Made by a program: the position numbers and the translations under genes
Part shown: one piece after another, positions 48,146 to 50,763 of the stretch
Layout: the number at the start of each line of letters is the position of its first letter
Numbering within the stretch: position 1 is the stretch's first letter
The notes under the pieces: model-generated
Databases searched by the model: none
What the model was told of the DNA's origin: nothing
The model's input: the letters and a program-made list of their open reading frames with translations, nothing else
NCBI RefSeq assembly: GCF_016901015.1
Contig: NZ_JAFEUP010000001.1
Location: 620,001 to 684,000 of the forward strand
From: Zestomonas insulae
Lineage (GTDB): Bacteria; Pseudomonadota; Gammaproteobacteria; Pseudomonadales; Pseudomonadaceae
Direction of reading: 5' to 3'
Length of the DNA: 64,000 nucleotides

Positions 48146-48511
48146 TCAGACGTCCTCGGGGTAACTGAACTCGAAGACCCGCACCACCTCGGCCGCATGC
48201 CACGAGGCAGCCGCGACTCCATCCGAAGGACCTGGAAACCGCCCGAGACGGACAACGATATCGAAGAAGCCGGTGCGCGGCAGACGGCTGGCACCCTGGC
48301 TGATCACCAGCGCACTGCGCAGCGGGCGCTCGGCCCGCGCATCGAGCGCCGCCAGGTGCTCCAAGGCCGCCGTAAGTGTCTGCATCGCGGGTGTCGGAAG
48401 CTCCAGACGCTCGATCAGCGCCCGGTAAGTCAACAGGTGGCGCTGTCGCCGCGCCTCGTCGAGCTCGTGAAGCAAGGCCTGCCATTGCTGGCGGCTGATA
48501 CGTAAGCTCAC
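48146..48511 (-). CDS. Unknown protein in XRE-Sel1 operon
   Basis: I cannot name this 121-residue protein. The GTG start at 48511 overlaps the stop of the XRE gene by four bases (GTGA) and has GGGGAG seven bases upstream; an in-frame ATG at 48547 lacks such a site. The N-terminal half is helical (WQALLHELDEARRQRHLLTYRALIERLELPTPAMQTLTAALEHL), resembling a winged-helix. The second half has RPLRSALVISQGASRLPRTGFFDIVVRLGRF, a pattern I associate with an uncharacterised conserved family. No toxin active site is evident. Confidence 0.7.
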   Translation of the reverse strand: MSLRISRQQWQALLHELDEARRQRHLLTYRALIERLELPTPAMQTLTAALEHLAALDARAERPLRSALVISQGASRLPRTGFFDIVVRLGRFPGPSDGVAAASWHAAEVVRVFEFSYPEDV

Positions 48512-48840
48512 ATCTCGTCTCCCCAACCGTCCACGCCCAGATTCCATGACAGGGCTCGCCGGATTGCTGCATCCGGCTGACGCTCACCTCTTTCGATCAT
48601 AGCTAAGTAATGCGGACTGATCCCGACAGCGCGCGCCAGTTGCTCGGCGGATAGCCCTTTCTGCTCGCGCAAGGCAGCCAGCTGCGCGAGCATCGGCCGA
48701 TTGCTCGGCGCTGCAGCCGGCGTCGCGGCAACCTCAGGCACAGCCCGCCCAGCTGCGCGCAGCAGCTCCTGGTACTCGGCCCAGGGCAACACGGCGTATT
48801 CGGCCTCACCATCACGCTTGATCACTTGCACGTTCATCAT
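48508..48840 (-). CDS. XRE-type regulator with antitoxin-like N-terminus
   Basis: A 110-residue protein (starts at 48840 or 48837 are equivalent). Residues 1-30 (NVQVIKRDGEAEYAVLPWAEYQELLRA) resemble the short beta-alpha N-terminus of Phd/YefM-type antitoxins. An alanine/proline linker follows, and residues about 50-105 form a helix-turn-helix: LAALREQKGLSAEQLARAVGISPHYLAMIERGERQP. It probably binds its own promoter. First gene of a coupled three-gene leftward unit. Confidence 0.85.
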   Translation of the reverse strand: MMNVQVIKRDGEAEYAVLPWAEYQELLRAAGRAVPEVAATPAAAPSNRPMLAQLAALREQKGLSAEQLARAVGISPHYLAMIERGERQPDAAIRRALSWNLGVDGWGDEM

Positions 48841-48895
48841 CGATCTCTCACCGGACGTCGCGCCATCTTAACAGGCTGCTCGCGGTGTACAGCGG

Positions 48896-49330
48896 CTATG
48901 GCAGCGGCTTATCCGATGGAGCCGGCAACAGCAAAGCGGCCTGCTTGGCGGCCGACTGTGCGTCACGCCAGGCGCGAAAGGCGTCCAGCTCGCGGCGCCA
49001 GCTGCGCATCAACCAGGTGAGTACCGCGATATCGTCGAGATAGCCGACCCCCAGCAACACATCCGGGATCGCGTCCAGCGGCGAGAGGAAGTACACCAGC
49101 GCCGCGACCACCGCTACCAATGCGCCACGACTGACCGCGCGATACTCACCACGCCACCACGCCATACACAGCGCCTGCAACAGCAGCAGATCGTCCTTGA
49201 CCGCGGCGAGTCGGCCACCCTGCCGAGCATTCTTTCGAGCGACTGCCGCGAGTAAAAAAGGCAGCCGCCCACGGCTGAGGAAACGCTCCGCTATAGGGAG
49301 GTAACGCTTGAATTTCCACGGAGCGCTCAT
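48896..49330 (-). CDS. YkvA family (DUF1232) membrane protein
   Basis: A 144-residue protein from ATG 49330. It contains the DUF1232 core, VVAALVYFLSPLDAIPDVLLGVGYLDDIAVLTWLMRS, in a hydrophobic region preceded by a basic segment. The function is unknown. It lies 55 bases before the XRE gene start in the same direction, and its upstream region holds a pair of inverted DnaA-box sequences. Confidence 0.87.
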   Translation of the reverse strand: MSAPWKFKRYLPIAERFLSRGRLPFLLAAVARKNARQGGRLAAVKDDLLLLQALCMAWWRGEYRAVSRGALVAVVAALVYFLSPLDAIPDVLLGVGYLDDIAVLTWLMRSWRRELDAFRAWRDAQSAAKQAALLLPAPSDKPLP

Positions 49331-49370
49331 CGCCAAACCTCGCCAAACCGCACACTAAAGGGCTCGTCTC

Positions 49371-49397
49371 GGTTATCCACCGAAGCTGTGGATAACC
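49371..49397. promoter_or_regulatory. Inverted pair of DnaA boxes upstream of the YkvA-like gene
   Basis: A perfect 10-bp inverted repeat, GGTTATCCAC / GTGGATAACC, with a 7-base spacer. It contains TTATCCACC on the plus strand and TTATCCACA on the minus strand; the latter is a perfect DnaA-box consensus. The site lies 41-67 bases upstream of the YkvA-like start and next to an AT-rich tract. Confidence 0.55.
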
Positions 49398-49655
49398 TTG
49401 TAGACAAATACTGGATGAGTGAAGCAAACGCCCGGCCCACGGGCCTTCCACACAGATCGGCCATTTTTTATTCAGCTTAAAAATACAAATAAAATCAATT
49501 ACTTATTGAAAAATGAAAAAAAGTGGAACGGGTAGGTCCAACCAAATGCGAAACGATCGTGCAATGTGCATAACCGTAACACTGGAAACACCCGCGCACG
49601 CGATTGAGACTGCGCCAACCGCCAGCCGGTTCGCCTTTTCTACCCTCCAGAAACG

Positions 49656-49683
49656 ACAACGCCCCGTCGAGACGGGGCGTTGT
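49656..49683 (-). terminator. Hairpin terminator of the FKBP lipoprotein gene
   Basis: A 13-bp perfect stem, ACAACGCCCCGTC / GACGGGGCGTTGT, with a 2-base loop lies 20 bases past the FKBP stop. Read leftward it is followed by CGTTTC, a modest U-tract. Confidence 0.8.
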
Positions 49684-49702
49684 GCGCAGACCGCGTTGGC
49701 TT

Positions 49703-50422
49703 TTACGGCTGCTGTGCCGCTTCCGCCTTGGCCGGGTCCTTGATGCCGATCAGCTCGATGTTGAACACCAGCACTGAGTTAGCCGGAATCGCCGGGCTCG
49801 GGCTTTGGTCGCCATAGGCCAGCTCGCTAGGAATGTAGAACTTGTACTTCTCGCCGACGTGCATCAGCTGCAGACCTTCCACCCAGCCCGGGATCACGCC
49901 ACTGACCGGCAGATCGATCGGACTACCGCGCTCGACGGAGCTGTCGAACACCTTGCCATCGGTCAGCTTGCCTTCGTAGTGAACAGTCACCACGTCAGTC
50001 GGCTTTGGCTGCGCGCCGTCGGCTTTCTTCTCCACTTCGTACTGCAGGCCCGAGGCAGTGGTTACCACGCCTTCACGCTTGCCGTTCTCGGCGAGGAACT
50101 TCTTGCCAGCGGCAGCGCTTTCTTCGTTGAGCTTGGTCATGCGCTCTTCGGCACGCTTCTGCAGGAAAGCGAAGGCTTCAGCCAGCTCTTCGTCCTTGAG
50201 CTTCTGCTCTTTCTTGCCGATGGCGTCTTCGATGCCCTGGGCGACGGCTTTGGAATCGAGATCATCCATGCCTTCCTGGGCCAGGCTCTTGCCCATGTTC
50301 AGGCCGATGCCATAGGAGGCTTTCTGCGCCGGGGTCTTCAGTTCCACGCTGGCTTGCTTATCGCAACCTGCGAGAACCAGGCCGACCAGGGCGATCGCCG
50401 CCGCCAAACGATGCTGTCTCAT
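49703..50422 (-). CDS. FKBP-type peptidyl-prolyl isomerase, lipoprotein
   Basis: A 239-residue protein with a lipoprotein signal (lipobox LAGC, Cys20). A helical Mip/FkpA-like dimerisation region (about 30-125) follows, then an FKBP domain (about 130-230) with VTVHYEGKLTDGKVFDSSVERGSPIDLPVSGVIPGWVEGLQLM. It assists folding of envelope proteins in the periplasm, anchored to a membrane. It lies downstream of the tRNA genes in the same direction but is likely expressed from its own promoter. Confidence 0.93.
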   Translation of the reverse strand: MRQHRLAAAIALVGLVLAGCDKQASVELKTPAQKASYGIGLNMGKSLAQEGMDDLDSKAVAQGIEDAIGKKEQKLKDEELAEAFAFLQKRAEERMTKLNEESAAAGKKFLAENGKREGVVTTASGLQYEVEKKADGAQPKPTDVVTVHYEGKLTDGKVFDSSVERGSPIDLPVSGVIPGWVEGLQLMHVGEKYKFYIPSELAYGDQSPSPAIPANSVLVFNIELIGIKDPAKAEAAQQP

Positions 50423-50590
50423 GCTGTTTCCTTGTCCGTACGCCCGAGCAGGGCTATCGAGTGAAGCCGCGAGCTTAGCAGGCTGCGAGGATCACTGGCT
50501 ATGGCGATATGAACAGGAAAACCTGAATAAGCTCAGGTATTTGGGAGACTTAAAAAGTGGGATTTTGCGAGGTGAAGCGAGGAGAGAAAA

Positions 50591-50667
50591 TGGCGCAGCG
50601 GACGGGACTCGAACCCGCGACCCCCGGCGTGACAGGCCGGTATTCTAACCGACTGAACTACCGCTGC
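50591..50667 (-). tRNA. tRNA-Asp (GTC)
   Basis: A 77-base cloverleaf on the minus strand. The 7-bp acceptor is GCAGCGG / CCGCTGC with discriminator G and encoded CCA. The D-arm starts TAGTTCAGTCGGTTAGAA, the anticodon loop is CTGTCAC with GTC, and the T-arm contains GGTTCGAGTCC. It lies 20 bases downstream of tRNA-Val, so both are probably one transcript. Confidence 0.96.
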
Positions 50668-50687
50668 GCGTAACACTAAGAAGGAAT

Positions 50688-50763
50688 TGGTGGGTGATGA
50701 CGGGATCGAACCGCCGACCCTCTGCTTGTAAGGCAGATGCTCTCCCGGCTGAGCTAATCACCC
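50688..50763 (-). tRNA. tRNA-Val (TAC)
   Basis: A 76-base cloverleaf on the minus strand. The acceptor is GGGTGAT / ATCACCC with discriminator A and encoded CCA. The D-arm starts TAGCTCAGCCGGGAGA, the anticodon loop contains TAC (CTTACAA), and the T-arm contains GGTTCGATCCC. A good promoter is 22 bases upstream. Confidence 0.96.

Follow-up and report, generated by a model that had tools for sequence, protein, structure and literature searches.

The intergenic region between the genes of an FKBP-type peptidyl-prolyl isomerase (49703–50422, minus strand) and a YkvA-like DUF1232 protein (48896–49336, minus strand) contains an element of about 200 bp, which, judging by its anatomy, is likely to be a DARS-type (DnaA-reactivating sequence) locus. 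In E. coli, DARS are loci exchanging ADP for ATP on DnaA, and Pseudomonas probably times DNA replication with a DARS-like switch. This reading is drawn from features visible in the sequences, namely, the DnaA boxes and their spacings, the Fis-type and IHF motifs, conservation in the genus, position in the middle of the chromosome arm and persistence in genomes without ykvA. Coordinates refer to the window, the whole 64-kb stretch of DNA analysed.

The core of the element is the dyad GGTTATCCAC-N7-GTGGATAACC, found by sequence match at 49371–49397. It holds, as had been predicted, one near-perfect and one perfect DnaA box in inverted orientation: box I, TTATCCACC (49373–49381, plus strand), and box II, TTATCCACA (49387–49395, minus strand), separated by a 5-bp gap. 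The YkvA-like gene lies on the box I side and the FKBP gene on the box III side; both are read leftward. The chance expectation for the dyad (8-bp arms, 7-bp gap), calculated from base composition, is 1.6e-6 per 64 kb and 1.2e-4 per genome. The whole genome contains one place with the 8-bp arms at gaps of 4–20 bp, the dyad itself, and none for the reversed-pattern control. Single DnaA boxes by themselves are unremarkable in the window, with 4 matches at one mismatch or fewer vs. 2.9 expected. The dyad is real and represents the best-conserved portion of the intergenic element.

Beyond the pair of the original prediction, four further features were found. Weak DnaA box III, TTGTCTACA (49399–49407, minus strand), differs from TTATCCACA by two changes, has the direction of box II, from which it is separated by a 3-bp gap, and occupies the position of box III of E. 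coli DARS1 and DARS2. A Fis-type site, GGCCATTTTTTATTC (49459–49473), begins at an offset of +86 from the start of box I. The IHF consensus WATCAANNNNTTR is matched without mismatch by AATCAATTACTTA (49493–49505, plus strand), and a fourth DnaA-box-like sequence, TTATGCACA, is located at 49565–49573 on the minus strand. The AT-rich tract at 49463–49525, which had been counted among the most AT-rich of the window, encloses the IHF site and the greater part of the Fis-type site; with 53 A+T of 63 bases it has the top value among all 63-bp stretches of the window.

Candidates of another nature were rejected. An RNA-family search of 48300–50700 gave a tRNA as the sole match above the gathering score, while matches to U7 snRNA (49368–49429, 17.9 bits against a threshold of 34) and mir-4449 (23.6 against 71) are at chance level. 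A mobile origin was considered on the basis of two plasmid records matching the dyad over 31–34 bases; their annotated neighbours are unrelated.

The layout of the core coincides with that of the E. coli loci. The intervals of the MG1655 genome that we take to hold DARS1 (bioD–uvrB) and DARS2 (rppH–mutH) were checked by core matches, which gave TTATCCACT-5-TGTGGATAA-3-TGTGTATTA for the DARS1 region and TTATTCACC-5-TGTGGATAG-3-TGTGAAGAA for DARS2; the Pseudomonas element in the same reading direction is TTATCCACN-5-TGTGGATAA-3-TGTGAACAG. The assignment of DARS2 agrees with the deletion primers printed in the available part of PMC4585315. According to the accessible passages of PMC5742627, DARS1 and DARS2 have in common three equally spaced boxes with box I opposite to boxes II and III, and DnaA is bound head to head on boxes I and II. 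Three DnaA boxes, I–III, with box I opposed to II and III and gaps of 5 and 3 bp, are present at 122 sites of the genus, and boxes I and II are strong and box III weak, as in E. coli.

Conservation of the dyad in related genomes, which had been named as a check, was found throughout: at the orthologous place, downstream of the FKBP gene, the pair is kept in all 125 genomes of the genus compared, in 122 of them as the strict core TTATCCACA-N5-NGTGGATAA and in three (L017, L187 and L207) with one change. The comparison covers 125 of the 199 genus genomes searched for YkvA. Thirty-seven of the 125 loci had been retrieved by the dyad or core pattern and match by construction; the other 88 were retrieved via YkvA similarity, and 87 of these contain the strict core together with a box-III-like sequence. 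Among the 59 loci L087–L145, 46 belong to genomes in which the longer-arm pattern had not been found; the full dyad with 10-bp arms, an exact inverted repeat, was found in 86 of 149 genus genomes (control 0). Ten loci were omitted as genome duplicates (L036, L038, L048, L049, L054, L055, L182, L183, L192 and L201), and L001, L002, the own-genome box loci L062–L086, L146–L149 and L209–L210 were also left out of the comparison. Loci with no FKBP match above 75%, namely, L047 and L053 (contig ends), L150–L179 and 10 non-orthologous loci, were omitted as well. In one further genome, G185, neither a core at one mismatch or fewer nor a YkvA match was detected.

At the 122 strict sites, box I is TTATCCAC followed by A (100 sites), C (12), T (8) or G (2). 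Box II is TTATCCACA at all 122, as the search pattern required, and box III is CTGTTCACA at 110 sites, the window having TTGTCTACA. Pairs of TTATCCAC and GTGGATAA within 60 bp have a gap of 7 in 122 of 122 cases.

Conservation extends beyond box III. In terms of information content, it is 1.7–1.9 bits in the first 30 bases, about 0.7–1.1 bits from +40 to +79, 1.5–1.6 bits past this spacer, at +80 to +99, and declines to 0.13 bits by +160. The second conserved block starts 81–83 bases past the start of box I in 111 of 125 loci, as located by one pattern, and at +82 by eye in the remaining 14 rows. The motif G-N2-YR-W5-YR-N2-C, which we take to be that of Fis and which was fixed after the conserved block had been seen, occurs at +86 in 117 of the 125 loci and has no match in five; in 200 block shuffles any match was present in a mean of 2.8 and a maximum of 7 loci. 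Since the motif was chosen post hoc, the fit of this putative Fis site is a description of the block and no independent prediction.

The IHF consensus without mismatch was found in 20 of the 125 loci, including the window, with 19 matches at +120 (shuffled mean 0.9, maximum 3), and with one mismatch in 31 loci (shuffled mean 17.4, maximum 27). Matches with two mismatches (114 loci) were rejected as evidence, the shuffled control being nearly as rich (mean 93.2, maximum 101). The perfect consensus is confined to the lineage of the window: all 20 loci fall among the 23 of 125 that carry TTATGCACA at +191 to +194, and the remaining 102 have a degenerate IHF position. The genome encodes a Fis homologue, 64% identical over residues 25–96, and an IHF-alpha scoring above the curated cut-off. 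DnaA is present in all 55 genomes searched; the genome of the window also carries a shorter DnaA-like frame, the product of which we infer to be Hda.

The element persists in genomes lacking one of its neighbours. No match to YkvA was found by genome search in G105, G131, G195 and G197, and only a match of E 1.4e-5 in G115; the retrieved loci of all five contain no YkvA and retain the core beside FKBP. In all ten pairs of these genomes, the core is 100% identical, the Fis block 95–100% and the IHF region 88–97%, with 72–93% for the spacer and 24–55% for the former ykvA flank. Because the flanks are similar among the five, these genomes probably share one loss event. A natural partial loss was observed in G006 (C128:30760, locus L193), where only a fragment of YkvA adjoins an intact core. 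In G360, belonging to another genus of the family, the core is located ahead of YkvA, with no FKBP match in 3 kb. Kept without ykvA in five genomes and without an FKBP match in G360, the core is independent of either neighbour.

The position of the element on the chromosome was determined in 29 genomes, those with a known length and with dnaA, dif and the element located; dnaA served as the marker of oriC. In all 29 the element is chromosomal and lies outside oriC, at 0.59 +/- 0.07 of the oriC–dif arm (range 0.47–0.78). E. coli DARS1 is located near 0.66 and DARS2 near 0.41 of the arm. Conserved gene order alone could account for this mid-arm position. Synteny with the E. coli loci was considered and rejected: in the window and 20 stretches of 20 kb, ten per side, no match to E. 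coli UvrB, YbhK, RppH or MutH was found within 249 kb of the element on one side and 215 kb on the other.

Several other functions of the dyad were weighed against a DARS-type locus. Control of the ykvA promoter, proposed in the original prediction, implies that DnaA on the dyad represses or activates transcription of ykvA and thereby ties it to the replication cycle. It agrees with the distance from the start of the box pair to the estimated ykvA start, 36–113 bp in 117 of 118 loci, a set in which some genomes are represented by two loci, and with the retention of the core before YkvA in G360; in four short-distance loci the core ends 19–20 bp before the first ykvA ATG, and bound DnaA would therefore cover the promoter or leader. 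However, the core is intact in the five ykvA-less genomes, even if these probably count as one loss, and in G006, and the conserved side is the one facing away from ykvA. Because the element survives the loss of ykvA, an operator of this gene is disfavoured as the main function and appears improbable, although binding of DnaA, as predicted from the boxes, may affect ykvA as a side effect. An operator of another protein that binds the dyad, with DnaA-box resemblance only, would account for the exact 10-bp inverted repeat in the 86 genomes. This reading is very unlikely: the constant bases are those of DnaA boxes, a third box is present and the layout is that of DARS. The dyad had also been viewed as a possible coincidental operator, which is unlikely because it is conserved genus-wide at fixed spacings.

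A plain titration site for DnaA, or a datA-like site stimulating ATP hydrolysis by DnaA, could likewise contain three or four DnaA boxes and an IHF site; the minimal region of datA consists of boxes 2, 3 and 7 and one IHF site, as given in the available text of PMC5742627. Titration, however, requires neither the fixed 5-bp/3-bp geometry nor a Fis-type site at a constant distance, and at E. coli datA the closest pair of inverted boxes (two mismatches or fewer, within 40 bp) has a 3-bp gap, unlike DARS. Such a site is an unlikely primary role, and titration may be a side effect of a DARS-type element. A secondary or relic replication origin, in which the DnaA boxes serve an adjacent AT-rich unwinding tract, is suggested by the box cluster lying next to the window's most AT-rich tract, but is hardly credible: the element is 1.1–2.1 Mb from dnaA in the 29 genomes placed, conservation decays inside the AT-rich tract, and the boxes near dnaA in one relative do not have such geometry.

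The DARS-type reading implies the following sequence of events, by analogy with E. coli, from which binding of DnaA, nucleotide exchange and control by Fis and IHF are inferred. ADP-DnaA would bind boxes I, II and III; the inverted pair of boxes I and II with its 5-bp gap would bring two DnaA molecules into a head-to-head complex, which box III would extend. The flanking DNA would be bent by Fis (at about +94) and IHF (at about +126), and these two proteins would set when the complex acts. ADP would then be released, and apo-DnaA would depart and take up ATP, so that ATP-DnaA would increase before the next initiation.

Three-box cores were also found at other places. The strict core pattern is present in 152 of 369 genomes of the class (control 0) and 12 of 115 genomes of the order; both counts are lower bounds, as the window's own genome fails the strict pattern (0 and 0), its box III having TGTA, not TGTG. 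The own genome contains a second DARS-like place, L200 (C7:428136), near a lon-like gene, an ORF of 113 aa and a yqhA-like gene. This lon/yqhA place was also observed in L190, L198, L199, L202, L344–L350, L352–L354 and L356; it contains three-box cores with the same gaps, in which box I is often TTATCCCC. Two cores about 500 bp apart are present at nine of these loci, and the own genome has one. Within the genus, the strict pattern occurs in 17 of 199 genomes, in 15 of the 17 at the lon/yqhA place.

At the class level, the gene priA, encoding primosomal helicase, adjoins the core in 10 of 30 loci (L159–L162, L169–L171, L174, L175 and L177), with Pfam domains confirmed for two. These cores may represent DnaA control of priA or a relocated DARS. 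In L163, and likewise in L164 by its ends, the core is located between the genes of a 5'-3' exonuclease and a HemN-type radical SAM protein, and in L166 it adjoins a class II tRNA synthetase with an editing domain. Some of the class-level cores may be ordinary clusters of DnaA boxes. The core thus occurs at the FKBP–ykvA, lon/yqhA and priA places, none of them related to those of E. coli DARS1 and DARS2. A tentative proposal, possible but somewhat doubtful, is that DARS-type recharging moves around the chromosome in evolution and that Pseudomonas has a variant with Fis between the core and IHF.

Other gammaproteobacteria have already been reported to carry DARS-like sequences. In the portions of the papers available, DARS are described for a number of Gammaproteobacteria (PMC4451416, citing Fujimitsu 2009), DARS-like sequences of V. 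cholerae for the E. coli localization (PMC6090056, citing Fujimitsu 2009), and the core of DARS2 is described as conserved among gamma-proteobacteria related to E. coli (PMC4245941). As far as these portions go, the V. cholerae sequences are located at the uvrB and mutH places, whereas the Pseudomonas element lies between FKBP and ykvA. Searches of the open-access literature yielded no title on a Pseudomonas DARS; a link between DARS and Pseudomonas is absent from the available parts of PMC4285127, PMC10218098, PMC5397419, PMC4451416, PMC6090056, PMC6784150 and PMC7566177, and Pseudomonas is unmentioned in the main text of PMC12371093, PMC13220808 and PMC5742627. The novelty is, accordingly, limited to a Pseudomonas DARS at the FKBP–ykvA locus, which was not found in the open-access literature to the extent that its texts were available.

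In the accessible parts of the published work, tests of the recharging function are described for E. coli alone. Because the Pseudomonas element, about 200 bp long, keeps its place throughout the genus and some species have lost the gene next to it, a single small deletion would be enough to test this function in a distant group. How bending proteins trigger the release of ADP could be studied with the natural variant that its altered Fis–IHF order provides.

Comparison with the known systems supports one part of the proposal that the dyad is a site of the datA/DARS kind. The DARS form holds, as box order, orientation and both spacings are those of DARS1 and DARS2, while the geometry does not fit datA. 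With datA the element shares DnaA boxes and, putatively, an IHF site outside oriC; it differs in the gap of the inverted pair, and datA promotes ATP hydrolysis by DnaA, not the release of ADP, according to the excerpts of PMC5742627. DARS1 has the same core geometry and, like the window, a perfect box II and a box I one base off perfect; it differs in that no uvrB is located near the Pseudomonas element. The available passages of the same source describe IHF and Fis sites for DARS2; for DARS1 they mention no more than a stimulatory flank of about 50 bp (PMC5742627). Similar to DARS2, the Pseudomonas element contains a three-box core with gaps of 5 and 3 bp and reversed box I, putative sites for IHF and Fis beyond box III and additional DnaA boxes past the core; the genomic neighbours are different, and box II is CTATCCACA in DARS2 and TTATCCACA in Pseudomonas. 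E. coli DARS2 was found to have IHF-like sites (+93, +109) and, at +145, a weak Fis-like match, and in the accessible text of PMC4245941 the IHF sites are placed between the core and the Fis sites. The order core–IHF–Fis of DARS2 is thus opposite to the order core–Fis–IHF of the Pseudomonas element, which is therefore not assigned to the DARS2 subtype.
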